A stretch of 64,000 nt of DNA from an uncultured Thalassolituus sp. (GTDB lineage: Bacteria > Pseudomonadota > Gammaproteobacteria > Pseudomonadales > Oceanobacteraceae): contig CAJXUK010000002.1 of the NCBI GenBank assembly GCA_913061435.1, positions 62,001-126,000 of the forward strand, read 5' to 3'. Made by a program: the position numbers and the translations under genes. Shown piece by piece: positions 12,687 through 20,032 of the stretch. The first letter of the stretch is position 1. Each line of letters begins with the position of its first letter. Under the pieces are notes generated by a model that was not told the DNA's origin, did not search any database, and saw only the letters and a program-made list of their open reading frames with translations.

Positions 12687-13283
12687 ATGGACATTTCAAC
12701 CATTGTAATTCTGGTCGTAATTGCGGCTTTAATTATTTACATCATTAGCATTTATAACACGCTTGTTACACTTAAAAACCGTTATGAAAATGGTTTTTCA
12801 CAAATAGAAGTGCAACTAAAGCGCCGCTACGATCTGATTCCTAATCTAGTGGAAACAGCGAAAGCGTATTTAAAGCACGAAGCCGACACATTAACCGCCG
12901 TCGTAGAAGCGCGCAACGAAGCCATGGCAGGTTTAAAAGCCGTGGCAAGTAACCCTTCTAGTGCAGCAGCAATGAGTAAATTAGCTGGCGCAGAAGGTGC
13001 TTTAGCCGGTGCAATGAGTCGTTTTAATGTCACGGTAGAAGCCTATCCAGAGCTTAAAGCGAATACCAACATGATGCAGTTGACCGAAGAACTGACCAGC
13101 ACTGAAAACAAAGTGGCTTTTGCTCGCCAAGCATTTAACGACGCAGTCACCGCTTACAATATTTATCGCCAGTCGTTCCCGCCCGTGTTTTTTGCTAGCA
13201 AGTTTGGCCATCCAACCGATGCCACCTTACTCGAATTTGAAGACAGCGTGCAAATTCAAACGGCACCCACGGTTAGCTTTTAA
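12687..13283 (+). CDS. LemA family membrane protein
   Basis: A 198-residue protein. Residues 5-25 form one N-terminal membrane helix; a helical domain follows with the LemA signature IEVQLKRRYDLIPNLVET at about 42-59 and YPELKANTNM near 120. LemA proteins are small envelope proteins of unknown biochemical role, often encoded beside M48/HtpX-type proteases or TPM-domain proteins. It starts nine bases after ydbL behind GGGGAAG and ends three bases before the protease gene, which places it in the same operon. Confidence 0.92.
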   Translation: MDISTIVILVVIAALIIYIISIYNTLVTLKNRYENGFSQIEVQLKRRYDLIPNLVETAKAYLKHEADTLTAVVEARNEAMAGLKAVASNPSSAAAMSKLAGAEGALAGAMSRFNVTVEAYPELKANTNMMQLTEELTSTENKVAFARQAFNDAVTAYNIYRQSFPPVFFASKFGHPTDATLLEFEDSVQIQTAPTVSF

Positions 13284-13286
13284 ACC

Positions 13287-15266
13287 ATGGATTTTTTTGG
13301 CCATCAGGATCAAGCCCGAAAGCGCACAAAGCAACTTGTGCTGCTGTTTGGGCTGGCGTTATTAACTCTCATTTTTTTAACCAACCTCATGGTCGCTGCG
13401 TTTTTGTGGGGCAACCCAGACGTTTTCCCCAGTGCCGCTCACAACATTCGCAATCCTTCTTTACTGGATATTTTTCATTACATGTCTTGGCAGGCGTGGG
13501 GGATTATTTCGGCCGTTGTCTGCAGTTTTGTCGGCTTAGCCTACTTGTATAAATCAATCAAACTCAGTGGGGGTGGCGCATCAATCGCACTATCTTTAGG
13601 TGGCCGTTTACTGCACCCCGACACAGAAGACTTTTACGAACGTCGTTTATTAAATATTGTTGAAGAAATGGCTATTGCCTCGGGCATGCCAGTGCCACAA
13701 GTCTATTTAATGGACGAAGAAATTGGCATTAATGCTTTTGCTGCGGGCTTTCAACCATCCGACGCCGTGATTGGTGTAACAAAAGGCTGCCTAACCAAGT
13801 TATCGCGGTTGCAGCTGCAAGGGGTTATTGGCCACGAGTTTAGCCACATTCTTAACGGCGATATGCGCATGAACATGCGTTTAATTGCTATTTTATTTGG
13901 TATTTTATGCATTGGTTTGTTGGGCCGATTTATTTTGCAAGCCGGGGCGCGTCATAGCGTTTATAGTCGTGGTCGATCTCAAGGTTCTATTTTTACCTCA
14001 TCTTCGTCTAGCAAAAAGGAAGGCGGTGTCCCGCTATTTTTAATCGGTTTAGGCTTTATGATACTCGGCTATAGCGGTGTCTTTTTTGGCAAGTTGATTC
14101 AATCGGCAGTTAGCCGCCAGCGGGAATATCTAGCCGACGCCAGTGCCGTACAATTTACTCGCAACCCAGAAGCCATCGCGCAAGCGTTAAAAGTAATAGG
14201 CTATGGTGGTGTCGGCTCAGCCATTGGCCATAGTCGTCGCGAAGAATTTAGCCATGCTTTTTTTAGTAACGCGATCAGCTCTCATTTTAGTTTAAGTGCG
14301 GGTTTTTTATCGACCCACCCCAAACTTGAACAGCGCATAAAGCGCATTGATCAGCGCTGGAATGGAGACTGGATTCAACCACAAACACTCAAGCAAGCCT
14401 ACGAAGAATCTCCAGAGCTAGTAAAGAAAAATAAAATCAGACCAGAAGAATTACTGACAGGTGTGGCAGCGGCAATGACCGCGGCGATTGATTTTCATCC
14501 TAAAACGAGCACAACAGAAACCAACACCCCAGTTTTGGATCAAACCGCCTTAGATCAAGCCGCTCATGATCCGTTTACTGCTCGAGCACTGTGTTACAGC
14601 CTCATTTTGGCACCCGATACGTCCTTAGTCCACGAACAGCAATTAGACCTGATTAACCAGTTGTGCGGTGCAGAAATCTTACAACAGACACAGCGCTTAT
14701 CTGCGCAGGTAGCAACACTGCCAGATGATCAGCGTTTGGCATTGGTTGAAAAATCAGTGCCCGCACTTAAATTACTCACCCCAGAAAAATACACCGAGTT
14801 CAAACAGCTACTCATTAAATTAGTACAAGCCGATGGCAAAATCGATTTGTTTGAATGGTGCTTGTACCGCATGCTACTGCAATATTTAAACCCCACATTT
14901 GGCAAGGCTAAGGCCATCAAAGCTAAGCACGGCAACCCCAATAAAATACAACCGCAAATAGAAACCGTTTTATCGTTCGTCGCTAATCATGGCAACAATT
15001 CTCTTGAAGGCGCCAGTGAAAGCTTTAATGTCGCGACCCAAGCAGCGGGCTTTGAAGGACTGTCTTTGCAACCGAGAACTGAATCATTTAAACAATTTAA
15101 TATTGCTTTAGGCGTAGTTACAGAAGCATACCCACACGTAAAAGGTCGTGTTATGAAAGCTTTAGCAGCCTGCGTGATGGTAGATGGCGTAGAAGCGGCC
15201 GAGAAAAATCTCGTGCAAACCATTGCTGCTATCTTGGAATGCCCAACACCCGATCTTTTTGCCTAG
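13287..15266 (+). CDS. M48 family membrane metalloprotease with long C-terminal extension
   Basis: A 659-residue protein. Membrane helices are near 17-41 and 72-92, and two more lie after the active site (about 199-218 and 248-266). HEFSH at 183-187 is the zinc and catalytic motif; REYLADASA (about 275-283) gives the third ligand, as in HtpX. The C-terminal 300 residues are not protease sequence; they are mostly helical and contain DGKIDLFEW and a second stretch with VMVDGVEAAEKN, resembling a TerB/DnaJ-like acidic fold, though I cannot confirm that. It is the last gene of the ydbH run. Confidence 0.9.
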   Translation: MDFFGHQDQARKRTKQLVLLFGLALLTLIFLTNLMVAAFLWGNPDVFPSAAHNIRNPSLLDIFHYMSWQAWGIISAVVCSFVGLAYLYKSIKLSGGGASIALSLGGRLLHPDTEDFYERRLLNIVEEMAIASGMPVPQVYLMDEEIGINAFAAGFQPSDAVIGVTKGCLTKLSRLQLQGVIGHEFSHILNGDMRMNMRLIAILFGILCIGLLGRFILQAGARHSVYSRGRSQGSIFTSSSSSKKEGGVPLFLIGLGFMILGYSGVFFGKLIQSAVSRQREYLADASAVQFTRNPEAIAQALKVIGYGGVGSAIGHSRREEFSHAFFSNAISSHFSLSAGFLSTHPKLEQRIKRIDQRWNGDWIQPQTLKQAYEESPELVKKNKIRPEELLTGVAAAMTAAIDFHPKTSTTETNTPVLDQTALDQAAHDPFTARALCYSLILAPDTSLVHEQQLDLINQLCGAEILQQTQRLSAQVATLPDDQRLALVEKSVPALKLLTPEKYTEFKQLLIKLVQADGKIDLFEWCLYRMLLQYLNPTFGKAKAIKAKHGNPNKIQPQIETVLSFVANHGNNSLEGASESFNVATQAAGFEGLSLQPRTESFKQFNIALGVVTEAYPHVKGRVMKALAACVMVDGVEAAEKNLVQTIAAILECPTPDLFA

Positions 15267-15768: not shown

Positions 15769-15811
15769 AAAAAAATACCCGCATGGTGAAAACCTTGCGG
15801 GTATTTTTTTA
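15769..15811. terminator. Bidirectional terminator between convergent genes
   Basis: A 13-14 bp stem (about 15769-15782 with 15797-15810) built on TACCCGC/GCGGGTA, with A and T tracts on the two sides. It serves the membrane-protein gene on plus and the thiamine operon on minus. Confidence 0.93.
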
Positions 15812-15828: not shown

Positions 15829-16647
15829 TTAGCTCTGCGCGCGATACCAAAGTGAAGCAAGGTACTCCATTTGAACATTAGCTCGCCGCCAAGCAATTTG
15901 GTTTTTCACGCCATACAAGGTGATTATAGTTTCTTCAAGAGCCAAAAGTTTGTCTTCACTAGCGCTGGATTTTTCTTTTATTCCTTGCCACAAGCCGGCC
16001 AAATCCCACAATGGATGTGCTAAACCAGCATACTCCCAATCAAGCAATTGCAACCCTGTATCTGTGTATAACCAATTAGCTAAAACAGCATCCATATGAC
16101 AAATACAAAACTCACCTGCTGGCGGTTCGCGCATAGCGACCTGCATTAATGGCTTCATTTTTAACATGTCGTCTTGAGGATTATTAGCGGCCAATATTTG
16201 CCAATAGGATTCAGCGATATCGCTAATATTTATTTTAGGTAATTCAATATTTATTGGTTGCTGATGAAGGTTTTTGAGCTGTTCAACCATGTAAGACAAC
16301 ACGCTAACGGGCAAGTCTGCTGCATCGGAAATCGATTCACTGAGTACTTCACCTGCAATATAATCTCTAATTAAATAGCTGTGATCATCGCTAATATAGC
16401 GTATTGGGCTAGTAATATTGGCTTTCGCCATTAGCTGATGAATTGCCAGTTCACGCTCACGATCGATCCCCAGGGCAAGAGTATTGGCGGCATTAACACG
16501 CAGAATATAATCACCACTGTCTAACGTTAAATGATAACTAATATTGGTTAAGCCACCATTTAATAGAGCAACCTGTGAAGTTTCTATTGGCTTTTGGGAT
16601 ATTCCCCATAAAGGCCAATCCTCTAAAATTTCTGCCAGATTGCTCAT
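15829..16647 (-). CDS. Choline/thiamine kinase-like phosphotransferase (APH fold)
   Basis: A 272-residue kinase of the aminoglycoside/choline phosphotransferase fold. Visible motifs are LNGGLTNISYHL near residue 28, an ILRVNA lysine-position strand, the catalytic loop HMDAVLANW (an HxDxxxxN variant) near 180, and LLDWEYAGLAHPLWDLA near 195. As the last gene of a TPP-riboswitch operon, its likely substrate is thiamine or a thiamine precursor, making it the salvage kinase after import. That is inference from context; choline kinase is the main alternative. An 82-base gap with a small hairpin separates it from pnuT. Confidence 0.8.
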   Translation of the reverse strand: MSNLAEILEDWPLWGISQKPIETSQVALLNGGLTNISYHLTLDSGDYILRVNAANTLALGIDRERELAIHQLMAKANITSPIRYISDDHSYLIRDYIAGEVLSESISDAADLPVSVLSYMVEQLKNLHQQPINIELPKINISDIAESYWQILAANNPQDDMLKMKPLMQVAMREPPAGEFCICHMDAVLANWLYTDTGLQLLDWEYAGLAHPLWDLAGLWQGIKEKSSASEDKLLALEETIITLYGVKNQIAWRRANVQMEYLASLWYRAQS

Positions 16648-16694
16648 GCGTTAATCGCTACTTCCTAAAATTAATCATCGTTTCACAAAATTTA

Positions 16695-16711
16695 TCAGCT
16701 TGCTAAGCTGA
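16695..16711 (-). other. Intercistronic hairpin between pnuT and the kinase gene
   Basis: A perfect 7-bp stem (16695-16701 with 16705-16711) with a three-base loop, in the 82-base gap. On the minus strand it is followed by TAAATTTTG, a poor T tract, so partial termination or mRNA processing is more likely than full termination. Confidence 0.45.
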
Positions 16712-16714
16712 AGC

Positions 16715-16744
16715 TTATTGTTGTTGCTATTATTGTTGTTGCTG
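16715..16744 (-). repeat. 15-bp tandem duplication across the pnuT stop codon
   Basis: Two copies of a 15-base CAA-rich unit (16715-16729 and 16730-16744, one mismatch) span the stop codon of the permease gene, so the last codons and the stop are repeated downstream. Confidence 0.85.
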
Positions 16745-17368
16745 ATGTTGATACTCTTTTTTCCACATAAACCAACCAATCACAATCATCACAATATAAA
16801 CAACCATTTGCAGCGCGACTAAATACAGTTCGCGATCTATAAATAAATAAATAGCAACAGTATCTATAACTAGCCAGTAAAGCCAATTTTCTAATATTTT
16901 TTGTGCAACCATATAAGTTGTCACCACGGCACCCCAGGTGGTGAATGAATCCAAATAAGGTAAGGCAGCATCAGTGTTTTGCTCTAAACCATAACCGCTT
17001 AATAAACTGAGTAAAATCACCCCGCTAATCACCAGAATATGGCGTTGATAAGACCAGCGCTGAATGGGTTTGTGATTATCATGTCCCATAGGGTCGCCGT
17101 TTGAACTGGCAAGGGCGTTAGTTTTCCACACCCACCAGCCATAAACCGCCATTAATAGATAATACACGTTCAGCGCAGACTCCATTAGCAGGTTTACATC
17201 CCAAAATAACCAACTAAAAATAGCCGTACTACCAAAAGCCGCATACCAGCCAAGAATATTTTGGCGCATTATCAAGACGAGATAAGCAAAGCCAAGAATA
17301 ACACCCACCAGCTCCCACAGACTCATTGCTTGAAAAGCTGAAATCACGCCTTGATAAAATGCATCCAT
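16730..17368 (-). CDS. pnuT: PnuC-family transporter, probable thiamine permease PnuT
   Basis: A 212-residue inner-membrane protein with about seven hydrophobic segments. WELVGVILGFAYLVLIMRQN near the N-terminus, YGWWVWK near residue 75 and TWGAVVTTYMVAQKILENWLYW around 145-166 are characteristic of the PnuC family. PnuC members carry nicotinamide riboside, riboflavin or thiamine by facilitated diffusion and trap the substrate by phosphorylation. The upstream TPP riboswitch and neighbours make thiamine the likely substrate. It starts three bases after the thiamine-binding gene and ends in a run of Gln. Confidence 0.88.
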   Translation of the reverse strand: MDAFYQGVISAFQAMSLWELVGVILGFAYLVLIMRQNILGWYAAFGSTAIFSWLFWDVNLLMESALNVYYLLMAVYGWWVWKTNALASSNGDPMGHDNHKPIQRWSYQRHILVISGVILLSLLSGYGLEQNTDAALPYLDSFTTWGAVVTTYMVAQKILENWLYWLVIDTVAIYLFIDRELYLVALQMVVYIVMIVIGWFMWKKEYQHQQQQ

Positions 17369-17371
17369 AAA

Positions 17372-17641
17372 TTAATCGCCGTGGGGGTTAAGTGCAGGGT
17401 CTAAATTTTTACCGATGAACTTACACACAAAAATGGCTTTGCCAAATTGCTCATAAGAGCGGCGCATTTCATCTTTAAGCGTATCCATAACCAAATCGTA
17501 ATCACCAAAAATTTGTGTGCTCATGGTATTGCCCACCACACTCAAACCCTTGGTTGCTTGCAAGCGTTCAATAAAACTTTTAATTGCCGGAATGTAATCT
17601 TCGGTTAGCGGATACTTGCTGATTTCTACTGATAGTTCCAT
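17372..17641 (-). CDS. Thiamine-binding protein, MTH1187/YkoF family (DUF77)
   Basis: An 89-residue cytoplasmic protein of the MTH1187/YkoF-like fold. The opening MELSVEISKYPLTEDYIPAIKSFI, the central TQIFGDYDLVM and the following amphipathic helix are typical. Relatives bind thiamine or hydroxymethylpyrimidine in a ferredoxin-like fold. I start at ATG 17641, because AAGGTGAT just upstream is a good ribosome site and overlaps the alternative GTG at 17650. It follows the TonB gene by 73 bases, which include a hairpin, and pnuT follows three bases later. Confidence 0.85.
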   Translation of the reverse strand: MELSVEISKYPLTEDYIPAIKSFIERLQATKGLSVVGNTMSTQIFGDYDLVMDTLKDEMRRSYEQFGKAIFVCKFIGKNLDPALNPHGD

Positions 17642-17673
17642 ATTTATCACCTTGATATTTTTTTACCGTATAA

Positions 17674-17700
17674 GACGGTTGCACCTTTTCAGCAACCGTC
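17674..17700 (-). other. Intercistronic hairpin between the TonB receptor and downstream genes
   Basis: A perfect 9-bp stem (17674-17682 with 17692-17700). On the minus strand only TTATAC follows, so it is a weak terminator at best; it may lower expression of the downstream genes or protect the receptor mRNA end. Confidence 0.5.
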
Positions 17701-17714
17701 ATCATTTTTAAGGA

Positions 17715-19823
17715 TTAAAAACTATAACGCCCTTCTATACCCACTAAGCGAGGCTCGCCTAGCTGCTCTTGTTTTTCGTCTGCGTATTCTAGGCGTGGGT
17801 CTATTCCAAAATAGAACCCCTTAACCGTATAATCTCGATTTGTTAAATTACGACCATAAATAGAAAGACTATAGTTAGCTCGAGTGTAAGCTAAACGAGC
17901 ATGAAGCAATGCATAAGCTGCAGATTGCTCATCGTGACTATCAGAATAATAAAACTTATCTTTCGCTTCTGCTTCTAATTGAACACTCAGTTCCGGAGTT
18001 AATGAATAACTCACAGCAGACGCTAAAGAATACTCAGGGGCGTGGGCTTGGTCACGGCCGTTTTTGTTAAAAACACCGTCATCATTCTCATAGGTATAAT
18101 CTACAAACTCTGTGACTAGATAACCGGCGCTTAACGCCCAATTTAATTTACGATTAATATCCCAGTCAGCTTCAATTTCTAAGCCGTAGTTTTTACCTTC
18201 AGCCGCATTAGCTAAATAATCTTGAAATCTGGGTGTACCATTTTCTAAATAGCTATAAGAACTTTTAACTTGCTGATTTTTACGTTGAATATAAAAAGCA
18301 GACAGTCGTGTTGTGAGATGGTCATTTAATAAAGAAGACTTTAACCCTAACTCTAACGTGTTATTAAATTCAGTATCGTATTCTCTTTTATCTTGAGAAA
18401 TGTCGGGGTTGGTATTAATACCACCTGCTTTATAACCTCGAGCCAACGACACATAAGCAAGATGATTAATATCAAACATCGATTCTAAAGTTACTTTACC
18501 ACCAAGTAGTGTCTCATCAGTTTCGCCGCTTACTTGATTGTTATCATCATAATCACTTACCCAGTTTTCAATACGTAAACCGGTAATTAAACGGAGTGAC
18601 GGCGATAAATCGCTATTAATTTCACCGTAAGCCGCGCTTGAATGTGTTTTTAAAGTGCTTTCAAATCTTTGCGTTATGAATTCATAATTGCGCTTTAAAT
18701 CTTCATCACGCTGCATAAAATAGAGGCCAACTACCCAGTCACTACTGCCAGAAAATATGCGCCCCTGGCTGCCCGATAATAATCTTATATCAGCAGATGC
18801 TCTTTCATTATCTCTAAAGTATTGATCATAAGCCTTATATTCCCAGACAGGTGCAATTCCAGGATAACTCCAGTCATCGTCATAACTGTATTCTGACTGT
18901 GTCCAGCTACCTGTAAGCTGAGTTTCTAACTGAATAGCGTTTGACAGTTTTGAGTTAAGCGATAACGAAAAGGCATCGGTATCTTGAGCGTCAGTGCCAG
19001 GCTCATCAGTATAGGTTTTTCGATTTTTTTCTAAACTAAAAGCATCGTAGCCATTATCAATATCGGCGTAAACATAAGTTAAATTAAGATCGGTATGCTC
19101 AGACAACTGCGCTGATAATTTACCACGCACAACTACTTCATCAATGTTATTGGTATTATTTTTATCGAGGTATTCATTTTCCATATAGCCATCAGTTTTA
19201 AAACTATTAACTGCTATACGCCCCTGTACATTATCGATAATAGAACCAGATATAGCGGCGCTTTGACTATGGGTATTATAGTTTGCTAGCTTACCTGATA
19301 CGTAGCCTTCTGTTTCTTTAGTGGCATCATTACTTTTAATATTAATCAATCCGGCAAGTGCATTCGCACCAAAGCGTGTGCCTTGGGGGCCACGTAAAAC
19401 TTCAACTTGCTGAACATCAAATAAAGTCGCCGCACCGCCTAAACCCGTCATGTCGATGCCATCTATAATCAAACCCACAGATGGGTTTACAGGGTCGATA
19501 AACTGGCTGCGCTCACCAATACCGCGTATCTGAAAAAAACGTGCTCTTGATGCACCGCTGGCAAAGTTAACGTTAGGAGCAAAGCTTAATACCTGCTCTA
19601 AATGTTCAGCGGAACGTAATGCGATATTGTCAGCACCAATAACGGTTACCGCTTCTGGTAGTTCTTGCACATCAGTTTCACGAAAGTCTGCGCTTACGGT
19701 AACCACGTCAAGATTGACTGTTTTGGATTGGGAATCTGTTGCCGTGTCTGCATTAGCTGCACTGGCTAGTATCGAAGAACTGATAGCAGTGGCTATCGAT
19801 AAGGATAAAGAAAGTTTTTTCAT
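17715..19823 (-). CDS. TonB-dependent outer-membrane receptor, probable thiamine receptor
   Basis: A 702-residue outer-membrane receptor from ATG 19823. Residues 1-25 are a signal peptide (cut near ANA). A TonB-box-like NLDVVTVSAD follows, then a plug domain (about 50-160) with IRGIGER and VEVLRGPQGTRFG. The remainder is a 22-strand-type barrel ending in GRYSF. A 29-residue upstream extension of the frame lies between riboswitch and start and is unlikely to be translated; GAGG lies 11 bases before the chosen ATG. The TPP riboswitch directly upstream makes thiamine or a thiamine phosphate the likely ligand. Confidence 0.92.
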   Translation of the reverse strand: MKKLSLSLSIATAISSSILASAANADTATDSQSKTVNLDVVTVSADFRETDVQELPEAVTVIGADNIALRSAEHLEQVLSFAPNVNFASGASRARFFQIRGIGERSQFIDPVNPSVGLIIDGIDMTGLGGAATLFDVQQVEVLRGPQGTRFGANALAGLINIKSNDATKETEGYVSGKLANYNTHSQSAAISGSIIDNVQGRIAVNSFKTDGYMENEYLDKNNTNNIDEVVVRGKLSAQLSEHTDLNLTYVYADIDNGYDAFSLEKNRKTYTDEPGTDAQDTDAFSLSLNSKLSNAIQLETQLTGSWTQSEYSYDDDWSYPGIAPVWEYKAYDQYFRDNERASADIRLLSGSQGRIFSGSSDWVVGLYFMQRDEDLKRNYEFITQRFESTLKTHSSAAYGEINSDLSPSLRLITGLRIENWVSDYDDNNQVSGETDETLLGGKVTLESMFDINHLAYVSLARGYKAGGINTNPDISQDKREYDTEFNNTLELGLKSSLLNDHLTTRLSAFYIQRKNQQVKSSYSYLENGTPRFQDYLANAAEGKNYGLEIEADWDINRKLNWALSAGYLVTEFVDYTYENDDGVFNKNGRDQAHAPEYSLASAVSYSLTPELSVQLEAEAKDKFYYSDSHDEQSAAYALLHARLAYTRANYSLSIYGRNLTNRDYTVKGFYFGIDPRLEYADEKQEQLGEPRLVGIEGRYSF

Positions 19824-19826
19824 GTC

Positions 19827-19912
19827 TAGGTCTACCTCAATAAAAAAAGAGAAGACCCGGTCGAGCGTAGCAAGCGTGAAATATCGGTGGATACAATTAT
19901 CTTGTATCAACT
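19827..19912 (-). promoter_or_regulatory. Riboswitch expression platform (predicted)
   Basis: Two structures are visible between aptamer and start codon. A 7-bp hairpin GATACAA-GATAA-TTGTATC (19892-19910) lies directly after the aptamer. Nearer the gene, GGTCTTCTC can pair with GAGGTAGACC, which contains the GAGG ribosome site. No strong terminator stem precedes the T tract, so translational control by ribosome-site masking is the simpler reading. This is inference from pairing by eye. Confidence 0.5.
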
Positions 19913-19914
19913 GA

Positions 19915-20032
19915 AGTGCCCATTCCTACGCCGGTGTTAACCGGATCAGGTTCAAGGAGTTTGCAATGCATCTCAGGCTCTTTAAAAATCTGTGTTTAAC
20001 AAAGACTTTTAATTCACCACCCCCTGGGTTCC
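19915..20032 (-). promoter_or_regulatory. TPP riboswitch (THI element)
   Basis: Read on the minus strand, the conserved aptamer parts occur in order: closing stem CCCA (20025-20028), GGGGGTG, CTGAGATGC, GAACCTGATCCGGTTAAC, CACCGGCGTAGGAA and TGGG (19919-19922), which pairs with the first strand. The variable P3-type arm lies around 19980-20010. The element is 92 bases upstream of the TonB receptor start. It senses thiamine pyrophosphate and should repress the operon when TPP is plentiful. Confidence 0.96.

Follow-up and report, generated by a model that had tools for sequence, protein, structure and literature searches.

A TPP-riboswitch operon as the probable thiamine supply of an uncultured Thalassolituus

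We examined a 64,000-nucleotide stretch of DNA from an uncultured Thalassolituus sp. (contig CAJXUK010000002.1, positions 62,001 to 126,000; hereafter, the window), which carries on its minus strand a thiamine pyrophosphate (TPP) riboswitch followed by genes for a TonB-dependent outer-membrane receptor, a YkoF-like protein, a PnuC-family permease and an APH-fold kinase, in this order. These elements likely constitute a TPP-repressed operon for the uptake and trapping of thiamine (vitamin B1), probably the main or only B1 supply of the host. We place the probability of this interpretation at about 0.83, with uptake, binding and kinase activity judged from sequence and gene context. An earlier account made from the letters of the DNA (the sequence-only reading) had proposed that TPP controls the import and salvage of thiamine at this locus. 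This is supported here, since the genome context points to thiamine as the substrate, and is extended: the host lacks a de novo pathway, and the operon is its probable source of B1.

Thiamine genes of the host

The host genome was searched for ThiC, ThiG, ThiE-type proteins and thiamine pyrophosphokinase; ThiD was not searched for by itself. ThiC, ThiG and the pyrophosphokinase gave no match, and the only match to ThiE was an unconvincing 19.4-bit fragment within a 300-residue frame. ThiL was present (293.9 bits). Since neither a ThiE-type activity nor a pyrophosphokinase was found, the remaining known route from thiamine to TPP consists of a thiamine kinase and ThiL. Imported thiamine would thus be the source of TPP, with the operon kinase as the best candidate for the thiamine kinase; it is also the best ThiK-type match in the host genome (92.7 bits, the next reaching 23.5 bits).

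We compared the host with nine sampled relatives of the same family, all of which had ThiC and two riboswitches each. Five of the six relatives whose loci were fetched contained a riboswitch-thiC-oxidoreductase-thiG-thiDE operon between two thioesterase-like genes on one side and HtpG on the other, and the sixth (L146) contained the thi genes without these flanks; the gene families at this site were checked by Pfam in one relative (L147) and in the host. At the corresponding site of the host, the second thioesterase-like gene is followed after ~150 nucleotides by HtpG, well inside a contig of 297,769 bases (L154:11571-12156). Synteny is broken further out: beyond the thioesterase-like genes, a neighbor is found on a different contig in the host. 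An incomplete assembly was rejected as the cause of the missing thi genes, because the site is closed in mid-contig and the genome contains no second TPP aptamer. The thi operon has been lost from this site along with its riboswitch. Across the wider genome sample described below, 29 of 55 genomes with the uptake operon had no thiC match, compared with 66 of 238 others (Fisher p = 7e-4, relatedness ignored). The operon thus serves thiamine makers and non-makers alike.

We propose that the TonB-powered receptor would carry thiamine over the outer membrane, and that thiamine would then cross the inner membrane by facilitated diffusion through the PnuC-type permease, as its family suggests. The kinase would convert it to thiamine phosphate, a step demanded by the gene content, and the product would be unable to leak back; ThiL, whose gene is present elsewhere in the genome, would then yield TPP. 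At high TPP the aptamer would fold and a hairpin would shut the ribosome-binding site (RBS) of the receptor gene, and at low TPP the CCGGGUC arm of that hairpin would pair with the aptamer strand GAUCCGG, freeing the site. For the YkoF-like protein, cytoplasmic binding of thiamine is the most likely activity; it may buffer the vitamin or hand it to the kinase, which is the least certain step of the scheme.

Riboswitch and expression platform

The sequence-only reading had placed a TPP aptamer at 19915-20032. A covariance model search against Rfam confirmed it: the entire model of the TPP riboswitch family RF00059 was matched at minus-strand positions 20034-19906, covering the proposed interval, with a score of 59.4 bits against a cut-off of 54.3 and an E value of 4e-9. 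This was the sole Rfam match over its cut-off within the window and the only TPP aptamer match in the host genome. Downstream of the aptamer, a minus-strand hairpin at 19828..19858 masks the RBS of the receptor gene and was seen in the folds of both the whole leader and its later part. The ACCGGGUCU region forms the 5' side of this hairpin and has an alternative partner in the aptamer strand GAUCCGGU, with which the 5' arm gave a duplex of -15.2 kcal/mol in the window. No terminator-like attenuator was detected on the minus strand between aptamer and receptor gene in the terminator scan.

We investigated the conservation of this platform in 57 leaders, comprising that of the window and those of 56 other loci. 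Four leaders (L052, L116, L063 and L037) were omitted for a doubtful start codon, which left 53; the duplex analysis comprised 51 distinct leader segments, and the covariation alignment 35 of these. CCGG was present in 53 of 53 leaders, against 14.1 predicted from shuffled sequences, and CCGGGTCT in 34 of 53, against 0.1. The ten bases from -14 to -5 had a mean pairing probability of 0.76 compared with 0.48 after shuffling, and exceeded the shuffle mean in all but one of the 53 leaders, where the start codons had been picked by a rule that prefers an upstream purine-rich stretch and may favor clean Shine-Dalgarno windows. In the alignment of 35 segments, both partners varied in three of five consensus pairs, although the consensus energy was weak (-1.27 kcal/mol). 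With the window fold and duplex energy, the leader motif, the pairing of the Shine-Dalgarno region and the covariation taken together, the RBS hairpin is well supported. The alternative helix is moderately supported: the duplex of the 5' arm with the aptamer strand averaged -11.1 kcal/mol versus -8.4 kcal/mol in shuffled sequences, and a control aptamer strand showed no pairing gain (-11.5 versus -12.2 kcal/mol).

The predicted pairing in the leader fits a translational off-switch. Control of translation initiation, as proposed here, is reported for translational TPP riboswitches of Escherichia coli (tbpA; PMC11487190). The description of the hairpin and of its CCGGGUCU arm comes from the present analysis. 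Pairing of a CUACGC element with the aptamer was found in 8 of 57 leaders (1.15 expected), seven of them from family relatives and one from the window; it was dropped as a general feature and retained as a local one.

Encoded proteins and conservation of the gene order

The four protein families named by the sequence-only reading were all matched. The receptor (17715..19823, minus strand, 702 amino acids) contains the Plug domain of TonB-dependent receptors (PF07715, 3.8e-16). Its start was taken as the ATG at 19823; a longer open reading frame (ORF), with a TTG at 19910 as its first codon, would start within the matched aptamer. The 89-residue YkoF/MTH1187-type protein, a single domain of thiamine-binding fold, is encoded at 17372..17641 on the same strand. 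The permease (16730..17368, minus strand) belongs to the PnuC family (PF04973, 5.8e-48), as does the nicotinamide riboside transporter of structure 4qtn, which its family profile matched at 2.5e-16; unlike that transporter, its riboswitch and neighbors point to thiamine, and it is probably a PnuT. The kinase (15829..16647, minus strand, 272 amino acids) matched PF01636 (1.3e-18) and is probably a thiamine kinase. Its best NCBIfam match was the thiK model TIGR02721 (92.8 bits), and the H, D, N and D residues typical of the family are conserved among 55 aligned sequences (H184, D186 and D203 in 55, N191 in 54). E. coli ThiK (YcfN) is an APH-type kinase like that of the window, but ThiK is not known to be part of such an operon. 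The context of the genes suggests thiamine as the cargo of the receptor and as the substrate of both permease and kinase.

We surveyed the gene order at the level of the bacterial order, in a sample of 293 genomes. Ninety of them, including the host, encode a relative of the 89-residue protein, and the other 89 loci were fetched and scored with profiles for the four proteins and with the riboswitch model; the model R1 was built from 18 sequences, themselves among those that R1 later found. The full order riboswitch-receptor-YkoF-PnuC-kinase was present in 54 of 89 loci, including a locus that carries an additional piece of PnuC. A further three loci contained all four genes with the contig ending before the riboswitch, and one had PnuC ahead of YkoF. 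The others comprised YkoF-kinase (4 loci), YkoF-PnuC (2), YkoF-PnuC-kinase (2), riboswitch-receptor-YkoF with or without PnuC (2) and YkoF alone (21). Such a survey had been suggested by the sequence-only reading, which regarded a YkoF-like protein beside a PnuC permease as unusual. As worded, that view is not supported, because the gene order is common in marine Gammaproteobacteria. Its recurrence with all five elements in 54 of the 89 loci, each from another genome, excludes a chance grouping.

A search of public genome records, from which 80 loci were kept out of 250 relatives, detected the four genes in order in 54 of 80 loci of named genomes, without a riboswitch criterion. The two surveys have some contigs in common and are not independent. 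Genera among the 80 loci included Oleispira, Bermanella, Thalassolituus, Oceanobacter, Microbulbifer and Zhongshania. Twenty of the remaining loci contained YkoF-PnuC-kinase without a recognized receptor, four contained YkoF alone and two were cut. Nineteen of the 20 receptor-less trios were from Pseudoalteromonas, and the other (L157) starts at a contig end. Thus 19 of 22 Pseudoalteromonas loci (L197, L198, L200, L201, L211, L213 and 13 more) had the trio without a receptor and 3 had a receptor; the riboswitch model matched 47 of the 80 loci and none of these 22. An Rfam search of 29 short loci gave no match, in stretches that reach only 1.5 kb beyond the YkoF match and do not extend to the riboswitch. 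In the tentative reading, taken up below, of YkoF-like protein, permease and kinase as one working unit, the trio would be a cassette to which outer-membrane receptors and riboswitches are added, as its mostly receptor-less state in Pseudoalteromonas suggests.

Rearranged operons were found among 20 hand-picked riboswitch sites, a selection that implies no rate. Receptor and PnuC lie at the riboswitch with no YkoF beside them in L130, L138, L141 and L142, and L130 and L141 also have the kinase. An opposite-strand ORF of ~260-290 amino acids lies between the riboswitch-side receptor and PnuC in L126, L128 and L138. The idea that YkoF is tied to one fixed partner in split operons was rejected, as it remained beside the kinase in four loci but beside PnuC in two others. 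The YkoF family is a companion of thiamine metabolism that is dispensable in some receptor-PnuC sets. In one rearranged uptake operon, a DUF885 protein is encoded between receptor and PnuC (L054:2261-4111).

Several observations weigh against the interpretation of the window genes as a TPP-repressed thiamine operon. The host genome is 94% complete, and a further B1 gene could have been missed. The leader after the aptamer, taken by itself, is of ordinary stability (z = -1.23, with 28 of 200 shuffles as good), and the switch helix was clearly better than shuffles in only 21 of 53 leaders. The receptor reached the cut-off of no specific receptor model in the NCBIfam search. The permease passed the PnuC equivalog model TIGR01528, named for nicotinamide riboside (65 bits against 42.45). 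The TIGR02721 score of the kinase falls well short of the 299.45 bits set as the ThiK equivalog cut-off, and the kinase also matched a guanitoxin kinase model (82.5 bits) and, just over its cut-off, Choline_kinase (30.7 against 29). Finally, a perfect stem-loop with a 7-pair stem (16695..16711, minus strand) lies in the 82-nucleotide spacer between PnuC and kinase genes and scored as terminator-like on both strands in a permissive scan, which gave 5 such sites in the region versus 3.7 expected. It occurs once in the window, adjoined by a CAACAA-rich stretch. Because of this stem-loop, co-transcription of the kinase gene with the upstream genes is not certain; the conserved order argues for it.

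Beyond the kinase gene, a terminator-like inverted repeat with a T run (15771..15807, minus strand) was read by eye and is unscored, as its loop exceeds the length allowed in the terminator scan. The flanks of the operon contain a LemA-like ORF (named by eye) followed by an M48 peptidase (PF01435) with a long C-terminal part (12687-15266) and, on the other side, a penicillin amidase family protein (PF01804; 21916-24453).

The YkoF-like protein and related systems

The predicted structure, the structure search and the family match agree on the YkoF/MTH1187 fold proposed by the sequence-only reading. The 89-residue protein matched PF07615 (Ykof) at 29.1 bits, over a cut-off of 21 (1.5e-6), and its AlphaFold2 model, built from 69 aligned sequences, had a predicted local distance difference test score (pLDDT) of 92.3. 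Rows 1-13 of the Foldseek result were all taken up by TM0486, SP2199, MJ1052, a B. cereus DUF77 protein and yeast YBL001c, with MTH1187 in row 15 and YkoF in row 17. The VIA Z values ran from 13.3 down to 10.2 among the single-domain members, against 8.0 for YkoF; since a designed protein (9.1) scored above YkoF, the link to YkoF rests on sequence more than on Z. The family profile of the 89-residue protein matched Bacillus subtilis YkoF at 9.1e-12 and MJ1052 at 1.9e-6. Family, fold and thiamine context are common to the window protein and B. subtilis YkoF (PDB 1s99; 1sbr with thiamin), but the latter matches the profile twice in tandem, whereas the former is a single domain beside a PnuC permease. 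In the single-domain MTH1187/TM0486/MJ1052 family (Thiamine_BP, DUF77) the fold is the same; the window protein itself matches PF07615 but not PF01910 at 1e-3, and 41 of 69 family members match each. Y10, P11 and G46 are invariant across the 69 sequences. B. subtilis YkoF goes with the YkoEDC transporter.

The nearest protein is 93% identical and comes from an uncultured Oleispira. Across the nine family relatives, identities of the best local matches were 66-81% for YkoF, 48-63% for the receptor, 48-61% for PnuC and 29-40% for the kinase. Over the window and 54 loci with all four genes by BLAST, a set that differs from the 54 five-part loci defined by profiles and riboswitch, mean pairwise identities were 43.9% (YkoF), 46.4% (receptor), 48.3% (PnuC) and 27.9% (kinase), with one PnuC row in the set just 12.5% identical to the window PnuC. 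The YkoF-like protein is thus the best-conserved operon protein within the family only, and this was rejected as a feature of the wider loci.

What the YkoF-like protein does may be read in several ways. It is possible, at well under even odds, that YkoF-like protein, permease and kinase work as one unit, in which the small protein is a hand-over partner that catches thiamine leaving a non-energized channel and presents it to the kinase. Such a role would be consistent with four loci that keep YkoF beside the kinase without PnuC (L059, L060, L071 and L076), in three of whose genomes the receptor and a same-strand PnuC sit at the riboswitch elsewhere (L126-L128). The opposite-strand ORF parts receptor and PnuC in L126 and L128, however, and PnuC may there escape riboswitch control. 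Two loci with YkoF and PnuC and no kinase found (L087 and L123) also argue against hand-over, as do the genome of L123, which has riboswitch, receptor and kinase together elsewhere (L129), and L141, with receptor, PnuC and kinase at the riboswitch and no YkoF match in its genome.

We regard as similarly tentative the idea that the protein is a passive cytosolic buffer or sink, which by keeping free thiamine low would pull more through the permease. The predicted membership of its fold in a thiamine-binding family would suit this, and YkoF, PnuC and kinase occur together without a recognized receptor in the 19 Pseudoalteromonas loci; yet a phosphorylating kinase already supplies the pull, 21 of 89 YkoF genes lie apart from the other three, and operons without YkoF occur. 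This separation in 21 loci, and the presence of YkoF copies beside a ThiD-ThiE fusion (L094) and ThiF (L112), would instead favor a sensor of thiamine or a precursor that tunes another protein and has no part in transport itself. We rate this slightly below hand-over and buffering. Against it, among the 24 loci with a YkoF identity to the window protein of 59% or more, 22 show all five parts in order and two hold all four genes (L054 reordered, L056 cut by a contig end).

It is unlikely that the operon transports not thiamine but a different compound related to TPP, for instance phosphorylated thiamine or HMP (hydroxymethylpyrimidine), the pyrimidine precursor. YkoF is termed a thiamin/HMP-binding protein in the title of one report (Devedjiev 2004), and the models left the receptor specificity unassigned; but because ThiG and a convincing ThiE are absent from the host, and the thiDE-bearing operon of the relatives is missing from its site there, HMP could not be converted to thiamine phosphate by the known route. 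The retention of the YkoF-like protein in a host without ThiG and a convincing ThiE likewise suggests thiamine itself, and not the pyrimidine precursor, as its ligand. An accidental grouping of a nicotinamide riboside importer with a choline kinase, to which the TIGR01528 and Choline_kinase scores would lend themselves, is very improbable, as 54 of the 89 loci hold the order with a TPP riboswitch ahead of it.

Among described systems, the OMthi-PnuT-Tnr3 set of Bacteroides comes closest. The kind of operon is already known, with the APH-type kinase and the YkoF-like protein as variations. According to the text of PMC5613172, the Bacteroidetes set resembles the window operon in its TPP riboswitch, TonB-dependent transporter, PnuT and intracellular phosphorylation; its third gene is tnr3, and that text does not mention YkoF. 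The window operon differs from it in the APH-type kinase, in having ThiL elsewhere and in the YkoF-like gene between receptor and permease. The same text gives genetic evidence that OMthi and PnuT of B. thetaiotaomicron matter when the bacterium grows on low thiamine, and reports that OMthi/PnuT transcripts of Bacteroides changed little with thiamine (PMC5613172). We found no description of the five-part arrangement in the literature searched, in which subscription journals are thinly covered, and we do not present it as unpublished.

In field studies, ykoF is listed as binding B1/HMP and omr1 as part of a putative B1 transporter (PMC10881298). A Baltic survey likewise describes omr1 transcription in Cellvibrionales, and the omr1 receptor gene is counted in field surveys with its specificity given as unclear (PMC12442306). 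The window receptor is a candidate omr1, and the conserved gene order would help to assign receptors of this type. Because the ability to make B1 is said to be missing from most bacterioplankton (PMC10881298), B1 uptake routes matter for aquatic ecology. The operon offers a permease, a kinase and a binding protein whose context is defined, and its host shows a clean loss of the de novo operon. The interest of the system lies in this loss of synthesis, in the conserved platform and in the role of the YkoF-like protein. If that protein does pass thiamine from the permease to the kinase, plain facilitated diffusion would suffice at the very low thiamine concentrations of seawater.

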